Shown here piece by piece: positions 35,724 to 42,467 of a stretch of DNA of 64,000 nt. The notes beneath the pieces were generated by a model, which had not been told where the DNA came from, did no database searches, and worked only from the letters and a program-made list of their open reading frames with translations. A program made the position numbers and the translations under genes. The stretch comes from Calothrix sp. NIES-4101 (GTDB taxonomy: Bacteria; Cyanobacteriota; Cyanobacteriia; Cyanobacteriales; Nostocaceae). The stretch lies in contig AP018280.1 in NCBI GenBank assembly GCA_004296455.1, positions 1,922,001 to 1,986,000 on the forward strand, given 5' to 3'. Each line of letters starts with the position of its first letter. Positions within the stretch are counted from its first letter, which is position 1.

Positions 35724-37799
35724 ATGAGAGAACGGGATATTCCAGAAGGTTTTTCTTCTTCCACGGTCAGCGAATCAGATGATGCGACCCAACTATCCCG
35801 GAAACAACAAGTTAATGGAAGTAATATGTCTGGTGTCCCTGGTACAAATTCAAGTGCTAAGTCAACCACCAAGTCTGTGAAGCAGCAAAAAACAAGTCAA
35901 TCTGAAAAAACAGTGCTACAAAGCGAAGCGCAAGAGCAAGTATCGGCAACAAGTAAAATTTCTGGGAAATTGCCGCGTTGGACAAAGAGTTGGATTTTGT
36001 GGACGGGCTTGTTAGCTTTTGTGCCAGGAACGATCGCATTTATTTCTATGGCAATGCTGTTTAAGTTGCCTGCCGCACCCAACTGTCCGGAAATTTTTTG
36101 GCCCCTCGCCAGTGCTTCAGTGCGGATGCATTGCGCTCAATTGGCAGCCTCAAAACAAACGGTTAACGACTTATTGCAAGCGATCGAATTAGTAAAGGGG
36201 TTGCCAGAAAATCATCCTTTACGTGGGGAAGTAGACCGTTTCTTAGAGGAATGGTCAAAGGATGTTTTGACTTTAGCCGACGAGAGTTTTCAAGCTGGGA
36301 AACTGAATGAAGCGATCGCCACAGCAAAACGCATTCCCAGTGATATGCCTGCCTATAAATTGGTAGAGGAAAAAATCCAGAATTGGCAGTCGATTTGGAC
36401 AAAAGGTGAGGAGATTTACAAAGAAACTGAAGATGCAATGCGTAATGCACGCTGGCAGCAAGCGTTTATGACAGCATCAAAGTTACTGCGTTTAGATAAC
36501 AAGTATTGGGAAAAAATTAAGTACCAGCAGTTGAATGACTTGATTACCAAGTCTCGTGAGGATGGCGAAAAGTTAGCAAAAGCTGAAGATTTAGCGAAAA
36601 CTGGTATCGTCGATAAAATTATTGAAGCCATTAAATTAGCTCAATCAGTAAGTAATGATAGCTATGTTTACCAAAAGGCTCAGGAGGCAATACCAGTTTT
36701 TGGTCGGCAAATGCTGAATATTGCTGAGAAGAAAATGCAAAGACGCGATGCCGATGAGGCAATCTCGATTGTCCAGCAAATTCCCGCCAACGCTGGTTTA
36801 CAAACCGAAACCGAAGACTTTATTGCAATTGCCGAGGCACAGCGTAACGCTTGGATTGGTACAGTATTAGGATTAGAATCAGCGATCGCCCAAGCCCAGC
36901 AAATCCAGCCAGAACGAGCGGTGTATCAAAAAGCGCAGCAGTTAATAGCTGGTTGGCAATTAGAAATTGGTGATGTTGTGCGTTTGGACAAAGCCAGAAC
37001 GCTGGCAAGTCAAGGTTCAATTGCAGACTTAACCGCAGCAGTTGCTGAAGCTCAGTTAGTTCCCGCAAATAATCCCCGTTCGCGGGAGGCTCGTCAAGAA
37101 ATCAGTCGTTGGATTGCCCAGGTACAAACTATTCAAGACCGCCCATTTTTAGACCGTGCCGAACAATTAGCCTATTCTCAGGATAATATTTCCCTCCAAG
37201 CTGCGATCGCGGAAGCTAGTCAAATTCGTCGTGGTCGCGCCTTGTATCCAGAAGCACGCAAAAAAATCAGTGAATGGACAGCAATCATTCAACGTGCCCA
37301 AGACCAACCTTATTTAGACCGAGCTAGGCAGTTAGCAAATAGTGGAGACTTTGCCGGAGCAATCCAAACTGCTAGCCAAATTACTGGTAATCGGGCATTA
37401 GCTGGTGAAGCCCAATCGGCAATTAACGATTGGCAAGGGCAAGTAGCATCTCGTAATAATTGGGACAAAGCCCGAACAGTTGCCTTACGTGGAACCCCTG
37501 ATGCATTATCGGAAGCCATTCGTCTTGCTAACAAAATTCCCGGTAGTAGTGCTTTACGCAACGATGTTAACCCAGCACTCGACCAATGGAGTCAGCAGTT
37601 GTTCGATATCGCGCGATCGCAATCCGAATCTGATGTTGAGAAAGCTATTCAGACAGCAGAGTTAATCCCACGGGGAACGGCAGCCTATAGTCAAGCCCAA
37701 CAACAAGTTCGTGCTTGGCGTGAATTTCTCAACCCGGCACCACTGCCAACCGAACAAGCACAACCACAACCTCAAGAATCAACAACAACTGGGCAATAA
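35724..37799 (+). CDS. Cyanobacterial membrane-anchored repeat protein, unknown function
   Basis: 691 residues. The first 85 are Ser/Gln/Thr-rich and likely disordered. One membrane helix follows at about 91-116 ('SWILWTGLLAFVPGTIAFIS'). From about 140 to 670 the protein is a solenoid of helical units of about 50-60 residues, with a shared pattern of 'A......L..AI..A..I......Y..A...I..W'. Examples are 'AIATAKRIPSDMPAYKLVEEKI', 'AIAEASQIRRGRALYPEARKKI' and 'AIQTASQITGNRALAGEAQSAI' (20 or so each). This is TPR-like and probably a protein-interaction scaffold on one side of the membrane. The end is Pro/Gln-rich. ATG or nearby; probably co-transcribed with hslO. A good terminator follows. Confidence 0.78.
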   Translation: MRERDIPEGFSSSTVSESDDATQLSRKQQVNGSNMSGVPGTNSSAKSTTKSVKQQKTSQSEKTVLQSEAQEQVSATSKISGKLPRWTKSWILWTGLLAFVPGTIAFISMAMLFKLPAAPNCPEIFWPLASASVRMHCAQLAASKQTVNDLLQAIELVKGLPENHPLRGEVDRFLEEWSKDVLTLADESFQAGKLNEAIATAKRIPSDMPAYKLVEEKIQNWQSIWTKGEEIYKETEDAMRNARWQQAFMTASKLLRLDNKYWEKIKYQQLNDLITKSREDGEKLAKAEDLAKTGIVDKIIEAIKLAQSVSNDSYVYQKAQEAIPVFGRQMLNIAEKKMQRRDADEAISIVQQIPANAGLQTETEDFIAIAEAQRNAWIGTVLGLESAIAQAQQIQPERAVYQKAQQLIAGWQLEIGDVVRLDKARTLASQGSIADLTAAVAEAQLVPANNPRSREARQEISRWIAQVQTIQDRPFLDRAEQLAYSQDNISLQAAIAEASQIRRGRALYPEARKKISEWTAIIQRAQDQPYLDRARQLANSGDFAGAIQTASQITGNRALAGEAQSAINDWQGQVASRNNWDKARTVALRGTPDALSEAIRLANKIPGSSALRNDVNPALDQWSQQLFDIARSQSESDVEKAIQTAELIPRGTAAYSQAQQQVRAWREFLNPAPLPTEQAQPQPQESTTTGQ

Positions 37800-37827
37800 G
37801 ATTTATTGCTAATATTTGACAATCTTA

Positions 37828-37865
37828 GGGGCGCTACTAAATAGTAGTGCCCTCAATATTTTTTG
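37828..37865 (+). terminator. Rho-independent-type terminator after the repeat-protein gene
   Basis: GGGGCGCTACTA (37828-37839) pairs with TAGTAGTGCCCT (37842-37853) with two G-T wobbles, followed by CAATATTTTTTG. It lies 28 bases after the stop codon at 37799. Confidence 0.8.
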
Positions 37866-37944
37866 ATATTCTGAATCCGTTAACTGATTAAGTATCAATA
37901 CGGTTCAGTTAAGGTGATCAGTCATCGATTTGTTGAGAACCAAG

Positions 37945-38046
37945 ATTTGGGGGATTCTCCCCCAAGCCCCCAATTGGGAAAAGTTGACGGGGAGATTTCT
38001 TCCCGTCAAACTTTGGACGGTTGCGTCCCCCGAGCCCCCTCCAAAA
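37945..38046. repeat. Hairpin-rich repeat block between convergent genes
   Basis: Two perfect hairpins lie in series: TTGGGGGA-TTC-TCCCCCAA at 37947-37965 and TTGACGGG (37984-37991) with CCCGTCAA (38002-38009). CCCCCGAGCCCCCT follows around 38026-38040. Tracts of this 'GCCCCCAATT..GGGGG' kind are frequent dispersed repeats in Nostocales genomes. It may also end transcription of the minus-strand NRPS gene. Confidence 0.65.
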
Positions 38047-38103
38047 AAGTTGATCTGTTTTATTCGCAGTAATTGATTTTATTCTTAACTAAACTGTATT
38101 GGA

Positions 38104-40770
38104 TTAAGTATTAGTATTCGAGGTTAAGTAATTAGATAATTGAACTCCTATAGGCTCATAATTAGTGCTGATCAAATGATTATGATGTCCTTGGACATCA
38201 ATTACTTCCACTGGTTTTTCTGTTAGTTCAGTCCAACCTAATTGGCGATCGTGTTGTACCCACCAAATTTGTTCTAGACAACGGAATAGGACGATTTTGC
38301 CGGGATATATTTGGGGAGTATAATCACAAACGGCATTTACGAGGCTAGAAAATAGTTCTTCTTCCTCTGAGGTTTCATTCGCTGTGGAAATTGCTGGAGA
38401 TACTATTTCTTGAATCGCAGTAACGGTTTTTCTCCAACGCTCTTGTAATCCACCCTGTAAATAGATGAGCTTGTGTGCTAACTTCAAATTCGTGAATGTG
38501 TTCCAGTGATAAGCCAGCCAATTCCCCAGTGATAATTGTCTGTAATATTTGGGGCAGGTAGTGTCTAATAATACAAGTAGCCCCACATCTTCCCCTTGGG
38601 CTAGGAGTTGCTGCGCCATTTCAAATATAATTACACCACCAACTGAATAACCACAAAGATGGTAGGGGCCTTGTGCTTGGACGTTACGGATATATTGGAT
38701 ATACTCAGTCGCAATAGCTTCTATTTGCTGACGGCTATCTTTTTTGCCATCAAGTATGTGAGCTTGTAATCCGTAAATTGGCTGTTCTGAGCCTAAATAT
38801 TTGACCAAGTTCTGAAAAGCGAGAACATTACCATCTGCACCGTGAATACAAAACAGAGGTGGTTTTTTGCCATTCCCTTGAATGGGTACTAAAGTTGACC
38901 AAAGTTCAGAATTATCTTCTTTTTGGAGAATATCTGCAAGTTCTGCAATTGTTGTAGCTTGTAAAAATGTTGTCAGAGGTAATTTTTGATGACATCTATG
39001 TTCAATTTGTGCCAGCATCCGCACAGCTAACAAAGAACTACCTCCCAACTCAAAGAAATTGTCATGGATGCCGATCGCTTCAATTCCCAGCAATTCCTGC
39101 CAAATTTCTGCTAATTGAGTTTCCAGATGCGATCGCGCCGCCACAAATTCTGGTTCGAGTTCGGGACGGGTGGGGTTGGGAATCGGTAATGCATGGCGAT
39201 CGAGTTTACCGTTCGGGTTCAGTGGTAAGCTTTCTAAAACAACAAATGTTGCAGGAACCATATAGTCAGCTAATTTTTGCTGGAGATAGCGACGAATTTC
39301 GCTGACTTTGATTGTTTGTTCAAGTTGAGGAACCAGATAAGCAACTAAGCGCTTCTCTGCTGATGTATCTTGACGGGCAATAACTACCGCTTCTCGGATA
39401 TGCGGAAGTTGTAACAAAGTGGTTTCGATTTCCCCTAATTCAATCCGGTAACCACGAATTTTGACTTGATGATCAATCCGTCCAAGAAATTCAATATTGC
39501 CATCGGCTAAAAAGCGTCCCAAATCTCCAGTTTTGTAGAGTTTTGCTGTTGGTTCTGGGTTTAAAGGATGAGGAATAAATTTTTCAGCGCTCAGTTCGGG
39601 ACGGTTCAGATAACCCCTTGCTAAACCGATTCCCCCAATGTGGATTTCTCCAGGTTCACCTATGGGGGTTGGTTGTAAGTTTTCGTCCAATATATAAATA
39701 TCCGCGTTGGTAATGGCTTTACCGATTGGTGCAACAGCAAAGTCTTCGGAACTCAGGCATTGCCAGAAAGTTGCATCGATGGAAGCTTCTGTAGGGCCAT
39801 AAACATTACATAACACTCCCTGTAAATTTGTGCGATCGCAGAATAGTTTAACTAAATCCATTGTTAAAGCTTCCCCACCGCAGGAAATATGTCGCAAACA
39901 TTGACAAGCTTCGATACCTTCTTCCTCTAAAAGCACCCGCAGCATTGAGGGGACAAAAGCTGTAATGGTTATTTGCTGTTCTGCGATCAGTTTAACTAGG
40001 TATGCTGTATCTTTATGTCCTTGCCGATGAGGTAAAACTAATTGTCCTCCATAGCAGAGAGTCCAAAATATCTGCCACACTGAAGGATCGAAACTAAAGG
40101 GAATATTTTGTAAAACTTTATCTGTATTGCTTAAACCGAAGGTTGTTTGTCGCCAATAGAGTTGGTTGACAATACCACGGTGAGGAACCATCACACCTTT
40201 GGGTTTTCCGGTAGAACCAGAGGTGTAGATAACATACATTAAATTTTCAATGGTTGTCTCGCAGGCTGGATTGTCTTGGCTTTGTTGAGCTAGTTCAGTC
40301 CACTGGGAATCAAGACAAAATAATTGCGCTGTAGTGTTTTCTAGATTCGGTAATAAATTTTTTTGTGTGAGTAGAAAAGGTGTCTGCGTGTCCTCTAATA
40401 TAAAATTCACCCGTTCCGGTGGATAATTAGGGTCTATTGGTACGTAAGCACCTCCAGCTTTGAGAACGCCCAATACCGCTACTATCATTTCTAGGGAACG
40501 TTCTAAATAAATTCCTACCATTACTTCTGGTTTGACACCTAGAGTTTTCAAGTAATGTGCCAGTTGATTGGCTTGCTGATTTAATTCTCGATAGGTAAGC
40601 GATTTCTCGGCAAATACTACTGCTACTGCATCAGGTGTTTGTAATGCTTGTGTCTCAAACATCTGATGTACACATTGTTTACCCAAATTGTTAAAACAAT
40701 TATCGGTTTCCGTTAGATGTTCTTGCTGATTTTGAGGCTGATTGTATAATTTATAACTTACAGTTGACAT
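38104..40770 (-). CDS. One-module NRPS-like enzyme: adenylation, carrier, thioesterase (A-T-TE)
   Basis: 888 residues. The adenylation domain (about 30-530) has intact cores: A3 'YTSGSTGKPKG' (182-192), A5 'YGPTEASID', A7 'YKTGDLGRF' and Lys522 (A10). By alignment in my head to GrsA, the pocket residues are D228, P229, W232, A271, I295, C297, V323, I331, D332 and K522. Asp228 predicts an alpha-amino acid, but I cannot name it. The carrier domain (about 548-615) has Ser579 in 'ELGGSSL' for phosphopantetheine. The type I thioesterase (about 635-885) has Ser709 in 'GYSVGG', Asp736 and a 'GHHNH' His near the end. There is no condensation, reductase or epimerase domain. ATG at 40770. A DUF6875-like gene lies upstream on the same strand. 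Confidence 0.92.
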   Translation of the reverse strand: MSTVSYKLYNQPQNQQEHLTETDNCFNNLGKQCVHQMFETQALQTPDAVAVVFAEKSLTYRELNQQANQLAHYLKTLGVKPEVMVGIYLERSLEMIVAVLGVLKAGGAYVPIDPNYPPERVNFILEDTQTPFLLTQKNLLPNLENTTAQLFCLDSQWTELAQQSQDNPACETTIENLMYVIYTSGSTGKPKGVMVPHRGIVNQLYWRQTTFGLSNTDKVLQNIPFSFDPSVWQIFWTLCYGGQLVLPHRQGHKDTAYLVKLIAEQQITITAFVPSMLRVLLEEEGIEACQCLRHISCGGEALTMDLVKLFCDRTNLQGVLCNVYGPTEASIDATFWQCLSSEDFAVAPIGKAITNADIYILDENLQPTPIGEPGEIHIGGIGLARGYLNRPELSAEKFIPHPLNPEPTAKLYKTGDLGRFLADGNIEFLGRIDHQVKIRGYRIELGEIETTLLQLPHIREAVVIARQDTSAEKRLVAYLVPQLEQTIKVSEIRRYLQQKLADYMVPATFVVLESLPLNPNGKLDRHALPIPNPTRPELEPEFVAARSHLETQLAEIWQELLGIEAIGIHDNFFELGGSSLLAVRMLAQIEHRCHQKLPLTTFLQATTIAELADILQKEDNSELWSTLVPIQGNGKKPPLFCIHGADGNVLAFQNLVKYLGSEQPIYGLQAHILDGKKDSRQQIEAIATEYIQYIRNVQAQGPYHLCGYSVGGVIIFEMAQQLLAQGEDVGLLVLLDTTCPKYYRQLSLGNWLAYHWNTFTNLKLAHKLIYLQGGLQERWRKTVTAIQEIVSPAISTANETSEEEELFSSLVNAVCDYTPQIYPGKIVLFRCLEQIWWVQHDRQLGWTELTEKPVEVIDVQGHHNHLISTNYEPIGVQLSNYLTSNTNT

Positions 40771-40944
40771 ATTTTTAGTATCTATTAATACAAAGTTTCG
40801 TGCTTAGAAGTTCCCATAAAAACTGTATTGAGTCGTCCTTTTTCTCTGAATAATGGATATGATGTGGGAATTTTACAAATTCCAATATTCCAAATCATCA
40901 ATATATAAGACCTTGCAATATTCTCGAAGTTTTAATGAATAGAG

Positions 40945-41658
40945 TTAGTGAATAGAGCTAAATGGGCATTTGAGAAACTTAGATGTTGGTGAAGATTTAT
41001 TTTCTATTAATTCCTGTTTAGCTACAGCTAAAGCGTGGATTGCTTGATAATAGTTTTTGTCGTCTTTAAATTTTTTTGCAAAACGTTGTAAGTAGGTTTC
41101 TAGGTATTTAATGCGGATTTGTGGTGCGTCATGAGAACTTTTGAGAAAAGGTAAATCCTGTTCTACCATGAAGCGAATAGCTAGTATCGGTACAGGGCTA
41201 CGGAGAGGACGAAAATCAGAATTATGTAAGCCTGGACTTTGATTACGCATATGAAATTCTCCCAGCATCATACCCGCTTCTACAAAGTAAGGTTTTAATT
41301 TTTGTTGGACTTCGTCAATTAAAGTTGGAGTATTTTCTATTTGAATACTAGGAAAAATTAGTAAGAATACTTTATATATTGTTGCTTCTCCAGTTGTTGG
41401 TTCTGCCTGTAAAAATACATCACGATATTTTCTAACAATATCTTCTATTTCCTGCTGAATAAGCTTTTCGGGTCGAATTACTGCTAATTGGATTGTATCG
41501 GCTTTTAAAGCGAAAGGTACATAAGGGCACACTTTACCGCTTCTACCTAAGTCTGGATGTGGCTTTGCCAAAAAGTTTCTTACCCATGTAGATATCTCAA
41601 TTAAGTACGGTAAATCTTGTTGAAATTTATCAATTTCTTGGGATGTATATAGTTGCAT
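40945..41658 (-). CDS. DUF6875-like protein, companion of the NRPS-like gene
   Basis: 237 residues. Soluble, with no membrane helix or signal. Central features: 'PHPDLGRSGKVCPYVPFAL' (about 33-51), 'IQLAVIRPEKL', 'YKVFLLIFPSIQ', 'GMMLGEFHMRNQSPGLHNSDF' (about 130-150) and 'LRSPVPILAIRFMVEQDLPFL' (about 152-172). The block 'GR.G.VCP.VP.AL' with 'GEFH....PGL.N..FRPL.SP.P.LAIR.MV..D..FL' matches, as far as I recall, a family listed as DUF6875, often encoded beside NRPS or PKS genes. The Cys, His and Arg residues in those blocks could form an active site, but function is unknown. ATG at 41658. The 174-base gap to the NRPS-like gene fits one operon. Confidence 0.7.
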   Translation of the reverse strand: MQLYTSQEIDKFQQDLPYLIEISTWVRNFLAKPHPDLGRSGKVCPYVPFALKADTIQLAVIRPEKLIQQEIEDIVRKYRDVFLQAEPTTGEATIYKVFLLIFPSIQIENTPTLIDEVQQKLKPYFVEAGMMLGEFHMRNQSPGLHNSDFRPLRSPVPILAIRFMVEQDLPFLKSSHDAPQIRIKYLETYLQRFAKKFKDDKNYYQAIHALAVAKQELIENKSSPTSKFLKCPFSSIH

Positions 41659-42467
41659 ATATGATTACCATTAGGAAGACTGAATACTTGAGAACAATAA
41701 GTATGGGAATTCATTAGTGTCAGAATGCATGAATCTTAAAATATGCGACTACTCATGAACTTACTGCCAATAAATAATTCTCTGAATCAGATAAATACAT
41801 CATTGGTATACAAAGCATTGATAATTCATAATTTTTAATCAGCACTTCAGGAAACAGTGAGCAACAATTAATTTCTCAATCCCAGATGGTACTTGATTAC
41901 TATGTATTGCTGTAATTAGACTGACTCAGTCATAAACTGTATTTTTACTTGTTTTCAGCCGATAATCATGAAGATTATGCTTAAATTCAGTTGTCAATTT
42001 TAAAGTTTTGTCAAATATCTGAATAAAGATAAAGCATAAATGATTTTATGAAGTGTAATTTTTATGTACTTAAGACAGTTTATCAAAACATTTTTTGATA
42101 AACGTATTTATTCTTAAAGTTTTGGTATGCTTTTAATTAAGTATCAATCAAGGATACTGAGGTGTCCGGAATATAAAAATTACTGATGTAAATAAAAGTC
42201 TTGATTTATTTCCGTAGATTCCTCAGCTAAAATCAGCAATTCAGCAACATCAATATATCTACTTGTCGGTATCAACGTACAAGTGAGACTGGTGTAACAT
42301 TTGCAGATATGGGAGTTTGGGTGTAGTATTGGCTGCGATACGGAGTATCGTACTTCCACAACAACAAAATCAGAACAAATAAGAACAAATAAGTCGGGTG
42401 CGAACCAATGGGAGACTGCGATACTACTCTTTAACTTTATATAACTATCTACTTCATCCATATACCC
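41659..42467. other. Long AT-rich spacer between the NRPS-like pair and ftsW
   Basis: An 809-base spacer between divergent genes. It carries an 11-bp perfect inverted repeat at 42078-42103 (listed separately). The rest is AT-rich, and the frame at 42180-42461 on the minus strand lacks family features. It must contain the promoters of the NRPS-like operon and of ftsW. Confidence 0.5.
42078..42103. promoter_or_regulatory. Perfect 11-bp inverted repeat
   Basis: GTTTATCAAAA (42078-42088) and TTTTGATAAAC (42093-42103) are exact inverted copies around a 4-base CATT loop. It is far from any stop codon (420 bases upstream of the NRPS-side gene, 365 upstream of ftsW), so an operator or transcript hairpin is more likely than a terminator. 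Confidence 0.5.

Follow-up and report, generated by a model that had tools for sequence, protein, structure and literature searches.

A conserved gene pair of a probable DUF6875 heme oxygenase and a one-module non-ribosomal peptide synthetase in Calothrix sp. NIES-4101

The DNA analyzed here, referred to below as the window, is a stretch of 64,000 nucleotides from Calothrix sp. NIES-4101 (contig AP018280.1, positions 1,922,001 to 1,986,000). It contains two minus-strand genes, the first encoding a protein of the DUF6875 family and the second, after a gap of 174 bp, a non-ribosomal peptide synthetase (NRPS) of a single module with adenylation (A), carrier (T) and thioesterase (TE) domains (Table 1). 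The two genes make up a genuine, conserved system rather than a remnant, and on balance we think it probable that they form a self-contained pathway, in which a heme oxygenase oxidizes an amino acid (likely tryptophan), a matched A domain loads it and the TE releases the product.

Table 1. Features of the gene pair (positions in the window; aa, amino acids; ORF, open reading frame)
Feature	Position	Strand	Basis
A-T-TE one-module NRPS, 888 aa	38104..40770	-	ORF; four Pfam domains; catalytic residues kept
Adenylation domain AMP-binding, aa 38-388	39607..40659	-	PF00501, 313.4 bits; code DPWASGVIDK
Pocket motif FDPSVWQIFW, aa 227-236, including Asp228	40063..40092	-	exact pattern match
AMP-binding_C, C-terminal part of the A domain, aa 447-522	39205..39432	-	PF13193
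Carrier domain PP-binding, aa 552-614, Ser579	38929..39117	-	PF00550
Thioesterase domain, aa 637 to end, triad Ser709/Asp736/His863	38107..38862	-	PF00975 at aa 637-748
DUF6875 protein, 237 aa, probable heme-dependent oxygenase	40945..41658	-	PF21780; literature; AlphaFold2 model
Invariant Cys44 codon, candidate heme ligand	41527..41529	-	alignments of 29, 12 and 44 proteins

Pfam searches (E <= 0.001) of the 888-residue protein detected only the four domains listed, and no condensation, reductase or oxidase domain, in agreement with the sequence-only reading of this DNA made earlier without database searches. The TE triad was assigned by motif. Asp228, Lys522, the carrier Ser579 and the TE His863 were invariant in all 33 aligned one-module homologues (the window's protein included), as was the string DPSVWQIFW, and the TE residues Ser709 and Asp736 were each kept in 32 of the 33. 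With A, carrier and TE domains that retain their catalytic residues, the protein is, as judged from its sequence, a one-module NRPS with a TE. The earlier reading had also pointed out Asp228 and proposed an alpha-amino acid as substrate, which is likely because this pocket Asp is kept.

The companion had been described as a DUF6875-like protein on the same strand with a conserved block of Cys, His and Arg residues. Both statements were borne out: the Pfam profile PF21780 matched with E 1.2e-67 and 227.9 bits (cut-off 24.5) over profile positions 2-175 of 178, and His34, Arg39, Cys44, His136 and Arg162 were invariant in 44 aligned cyanobacterial proteins. When two Streptomyces and two Rhizobium proteins were added, His136 was lost in Rhizobium and the other four residues stayed. 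His34, as invariant as Cys44, is the other candidate heme ligand. According to a 2026 paper, DUF6875 proteins bind heme and oxidize L-tryptophan, and ZigI, the DUF6875 protein of zigralone biosynthesis, is among the 'cytochrome P422' tryptophan oxygenases; zigI deletion yielded a demethoxylated compound, and its authors propose that an indole intermediate is hydroxylated at C-7 (PMC13307353). The name P422 does not decide between Cys44 and His34.

An AlphaFold2 model of the 237-residue protein, built with 44 sequences, reached a pLDDT of 91.6. Among the chains compared the best structural match was AglA, with five entries at Z 7.0-8.7 over 134-139 residues and 5-8% identity, although, as the structure tool cautions, Z 7-8 is common for models that lack clear relatives; the next match had Z 6.2 over 56 residues. 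AglA is described as a heme N-hydroxylase of 'sandwich' fold with Cys44 as heme ligand, acting on guanidine N-H (PMC12866846). The order of helices and strands is similar in the two proteins, and the invariant Cys44 of the window's protein lies after the first helix, between the first two helices of the model, where it would be equivalent to the Cys44 of AglA. On the other hand, three DUF6875 proteins gave no Pfam match to the YqcI/YcgG family, with which AglA is grouped, at E <= 1. Sequence matches among solved structures (E >= 0.21) were to DDX48/eIF4A-III chains and were judged to be chance, so that no relative was found in this way. The sequence-only reading had allowed for the companion being an acceptor of the activated amino acid; the literature and the moderate AglA fold match correct this to a protein that is probably a heme oxygenase, heme binding and tryptophan oxidation resting on the literature and being putative for the window's protein.

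The association of the two genes was analyzed in genomes of the window's family. DUF6875 was present in 83 of 192 genomes, in 81 of them above the Pfam cut-off; the two genomes below it (G074 and G099) were set aside in the cross-table. A strict 30-base degenerate DNA pattern for FDPSVWQIFW was found in 75 of the 192 genomes, all 75 of them among the 81 with DUF6875, and in none of the other 111 (Fisher p 9e-47, which is not a true probability because the genomes are related). The sequence-only reading had said that a lack of joint conservation would refute it; this was not what was seen, every motif genome carrying DUF6875. Six DUF6875 genomes were without the exact pattern. Two of these (G184 and G050) have the same code with one motif residue changed, two (G118 and G148) have, directly after DUF6875, an A-domain fragment truncated where the contig stops, and the G104 contig runs for only 209 bp beyond DUF6875; the sixth, G035, is considered below. 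In a sample of 386 genomes of the phylum the same 11 had both DUF6875 and the motif, all 11 belonging to the window's family and being already in the 192-genome sample. These results indicate that DUF6875 in cyanobacteria goes with one A-domain type. Short DUF6875 pieces were also seen on contigs with the DPW motif (G181:C46, G130:C13, G105:C169 and G119:C71), three of them about 1 kb away from it, and are possibly remnants of copies lost beside an NRPS.

The arrangement of the genes was determined at 84 fetched loci out of 94 DUF6875 places listed; the remaining ten were the window's own place and nine short or weak pieces. Arrangement classes rest on blastp comparisons with the A, T and TE domains of the window's protein, and condensation domains were checked with Pfam in four proteins. 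An NRPS was directly adjacent to DUF6875 at 51 of the 84 loci: 18 with A-T-TE downstream, one with A-T-TE upstream, 19 with a two-module NRPS with TE, eight with a multi-module NRPS without TE in the same frame, and five cut or broken. Three loci end too soon to be classified. The three nearest relatives, Calothrix HK-06, PCC 7716 and PCC 7103, each carry the pair as in the window. A contig scan with a single protein returned no relatives; with a protein alignment it returned 249, and an NRPS gene lay within 1.5 kb in 41 of the best 80 of these 249 loci, which largely overlap the family genomes. At the kept cyanobacterial loci judged to lie outside the window's family the A-T-TE gene adjoined DUF6875 in nine of nine, in changed orientation: divergent in Lyngbya, Oculatella, Elainella, Stenomitos, Leptolyngbyaceae M33, Nodosilinea, Tildeniella and a cyanobacterial metagenome-assembled genome, and upstream on the same strand in a Chroococcidiopsidaceae metagenome-assembled genome. 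That the genes keep together in changed orientation at these far loci argues for a functional link.

Nostoc-type genomes mostly have DUF6875 without a neighboring NRPS, with the A-domain motif elsewhere in the genome. Such solo genes were first counted as evidence against pairing, a view overturned since the A domain lies elsewhere in those genomes. Of 20 fetched unlinked motif places, 13 were two-module, four one-module and two multi-module NRPSs, and one was a broken NRPS. Solo DUF6875 genes at L031, L032, L035 and similar Nostoc-type loci share a site after an alpha/beta-hydrolase-like gene. No conserved third partner was seen among the neighbors, which vary by lineage and, named by eye, look like housekeeping genes. 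The one-module form is a feature of the lineage: in further members of the family the same A-domain type is part of NRPSs with two or three modules that lie next to DUF6875.

The specificity code of the window's A domain, with its positions set by alignment to gramicidin synthetase, is DPWASGVIDK. Among the adjacent NRPSs, all 49 whose A domain was of sufficient length had one domain with the code DPW[AGT][TSF]G[CV]IDK (three cut short); the nine far loci had DPWAFGVIDK (eight) or DPWASGVIDK (one), and the 20 unlinked motif places were all of the DPW type (one cut short), including DPWAIGCIDK. The cyanobacterial consensus, linked and unlinked, is DPW[AGT][TSFI]G[CV]IDK. Conserved adjacency and a coherent pocket code, which the sequence-only reading had expected of a dedicated system, were thus both found. 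Codes of the partner modules were DILQLGMIWK, DVWHFSLIDK and DLTKVGHVGK, which we take to stand for Gly, Ser and an Asp/Asn-like residue, respectively, together with the unassigned DVRHFAL[LM]AK and DPRHFAFQAK; modules of the last two types recur beside the DPW module at many two-module loci and at L043, L046, L067 and L083. Relative to DAWTIAAICK, the Phe pocket of gramicidin synthetase, three positions of the window code hold smaller residues and an Asp stands close to its end. The pocket is consistent with a larger aromatic side chain bearing an N-H or O-H group. Tryptophan-specific A domains are reported to use several unlike pockets (PMC13126170), and the lack of a known tryptophan code of this kind is therefore no argument either way.

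The history of the A domain was examined in a quick-method tree of 74 domains of the DPW type, rooted with a small outgroup of six others; the tree carried long-branch warnings and some weak forks. Its earliest branches are the far one-module proteins, so that the one-module enzymes look ancestral and the multi-module ones derived, with several reversals (eight one-/multi-module label changes in all). The window falls among ten one-module proteins that form one group (support 88, not starred), with the three Calothrix proteins nearest to it (support 100*).

Outside cyanobacteria, DUF6875 relatives were found in 61 plasmid records, mainly of Rhizobium (42) and Streptomyces (16), of which four were examined. 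On a plasmid of Streptomyces sp. NBC_00523 (L107:9921-16538) DUF6875 is grouped with trpA and the genes for indole-glycerol-phosphate synthase and phosphoribosylanthranilate isomerase, and the group also holds a carrier protein and a pyridoxal phosphate-dependent decarboxylase-like enzyme. On a plasmid of Streptomyces sp. NBC_00557 (L106:12216-24100) DUF6875 overlaps the beginning of an NRPS gene that encodes two A domains, two condensation domains and a TE, and genes for a TauD-like dioxygenase and a diaminopimelate decarboxylase lie alongside. In Lysobacter psychrotolerans (L188:9896-12112) DUF6875 is fused to a flavin (FAD) monooxygenase downstream of NRPS genes; the best NCBIfam model for the monooxygenase was that of VioC, an enzyme of violacein biosynthesis, with 183 of 760 bits, far under the cut-off. 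The Streptomyces and Lysobacter contexts fit indole or tryptophan oxidation together with use by an NRPS, short of proof. On two Rhizobium plasmids (L108:11884-13184 and L109:11869-13171), which also carry nodD3, DUF6875 is followed by a YbaK/EbsC protein, by name aminoacyl-tRNA deacylase-like, and L109 has a methionyl-tRNA synthetase-like protein nearby; this combination could provide self-protection against a modified amino acid.

In the pathway that we favor, DUF6875 would act as a non-P450 heme-dependent oxygenase on an aromatic amino acid in free form, L-tryptophan being the likeliest candidate and ring hydroxylation the best guess. The A domain would then activate the oxidized amino acid with ATP and load it onto the carrier domain, and the TE would release the product as a free acid, an ester or two units joined; in other family members the same module, extended by further modules, would give short peptides with the same residue. 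The substrate, the order of steps and the product are what we infer from these data. Sequence cannot separate hydrolysis by the TE from dimerization, and dimerization of the loaded units is possible. A fuller version, a widespread and previously undescribed cyanobacterial pathway in which a co-evolved A domain with a new pocket code selects an oxidized tryptophan-type residue made by the non-P450 heme oxygenase, the TE dimerizes it, as in a split counterpart of indigoidine synthetase, and other lineages make short peptides with that residue from the rebuilt module, is put forward tentatively and is rather unlikely to hold in every part.

Oxidation could instead occur on the carrier, the A domain loading an ordinary amino acid such as L-tryptophan, DUF6875 oxidizing the thioester and the TE hydrolyzing it. 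Sets of A-T, P450 and TE proteins make beta-hydroxy amino acids in this manner (nikkomycin, quinomycin), and both a stand-alone A-T-TE enzyme next to an oxygenase and the adjacency of the genes in many genomes would suit such a logic. We consider it unlikely. Oxidation before loading is favored because this type of A domain occurs in DUF6875 genomes only, a restriction that an ordinary tryptophan domain need not show, and DUF6875 proteins are reported to oxidize L-tryptophan (PMC13307353). The restriction supports this order of steps without proving it, since common descent of the two genes as one unit would produce it too. An arginine-like substrate, with DUF6875 hydroxylating a guanidine nitrogen and the A domain loading N-hydroxyarginine or a relative, would account for the Asp that closes the side-chain part of the code, as it does in some arginine codes. 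It would also suit the best fold match, AglA being described as a guanidine N-hydroxylase (PMC12866846). The reported tryptophan oxidation (PMC13307353), the lack of a YqcI/YcgG match in the three DUF6875 proteins searched and the tryptophan genes beside the Streptomyces DUF6875 make this reading improbable.

The domain order is that of dimerizing aryl-acid synthetases of the atromentin/furanone type, and the enzyme might be one of these that loads an aryl-pyruvate, with DUF6875 an unrelated neighbor. Such synthetases are not known to have the pocket Asp, whereas all 33 one-module homologues here retain it, and DUF6875 accompanies the A domain also where the two genes are unlinked; we regard this explanation as very unlikely. 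Least probable of all is that the pair is the decayed end of a larger NRPS cluster, a possibility raised by the sequence-only reading and favored by the two- and three-module versions in other genomes and by the position of the pair at a synteny break with two congeners. The three nearest relatives carry the same pair and no larger cluster, the catalytic residues are kept, and in the quick tree with its six outgroup rows the window lies in an all-one-module group of ten, the far one-module proteins being basal.

Several observations weigh against oxidation of a tryptophan-type residue followed by its loading onto a matched A domain. DUF6875 stands alone, with no NRPS within 1.5 kb, at 30 of the 84 loci, and in G035 both fetched best A domains show another code, presumably Gln-like. 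The co-occurrence could be explained by common descent of the pair without a substrate match. The NRPS codes at the Streptomyces (L106) and Lysobacter (L188) loci are unlike DPW, and the matched code is therefore a cyanobacterial feature as far as seen. The fold match to AglA is moderate, Foldseek alone giving E 0.11 and TM 0.38. The code has no known substrate, its fragments were absent from the literature searched, and literature searches on 7-hydroxytryptophan, cyanobacterial A-T-TE enzymes and cyanobacterial tryptophan codes returned no comparable code or product.

The families of both parts are known; neither their combination nor the code and its distribution turned up in the literature searched, outside which the P422 preprint lies. 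The window's protein belongs to the same Pfam family as the cytochrome P422 oxygenases, whereas ZigI acts in a meroterpenoid pathway without thiotemplate enzymes (PMC13307353) and the window partner is a one-module NRPS. The pair may also be compared with indigoidine synthetase, likewise a one-module NRPS with a TE, an oxidation and a possible dimeric product. In that A(Ox)-T-TE enzyme the oxidase domain lies inside the A domain, whereas the window's protein has no internal oxidase and a different code, and would depend for the oxidation on a heme enzyme encoded by its own gene. Sets of the NikP1/NikQ type, a stand-alone A-T protein and a P450 for beta-hydroxy amino acids, likewise pair a small NRPS module with a heme oxygenase; the window's oxygenase is of another family and its A-domain type is specific to DUF6875 genomes. 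If the favored pathway is true, it would link a newly described heme-enzyme family in many cyanobacteria to one defined amino acid and to the A-domain code that matches it, and the product might require no more than two genes. The metabolite, the NRPS code and the chemistry of cyanobacterial DUF6875 could then be tested together in one simple heterologous expression, and the code would let genome miners recognize the oxidized building block.

The PF21780 profile matched one protein only, that of the pair, in the 7.59-Mb genome. Six other full-length NRPS-type A domains were found, all at 1.10-1.13 Mb, about 0.8 Mb from the pair, with 42-50% identity to its A domain; ten further A-domain matches were short or weak. 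As the earlier reading had stated, no biosynthetic genes besides the pair were seen among the ORFs within 5 kb, only some of which were family-searched. The flanking genes encode Hsp33, a 691-residue protein without a Pfam match above the cut-off, and an FtsW/RodA protein. Two genomes of the same genus (G019 and G068) have neither DUF6875 nor the A-domain motif, and no trace of the pair was seen at the corresponding site in them. Their left flank (Hsp33 and the 691-residue gene) and right flank (FtsW onward) align with the window at 82-87% identity (91% in one 43-bp piece), lie on separate contigs in both genomes, and lose similarity at about 37801 and 42293. The pair, within the interval 37802-42292, thus occupies a rearrangement point relative to these two congeners. 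The 691-residue protein, encoded at 35724-37799 on the plus strand, has 84% identity in the congeners and looks internally repetitive by eye.

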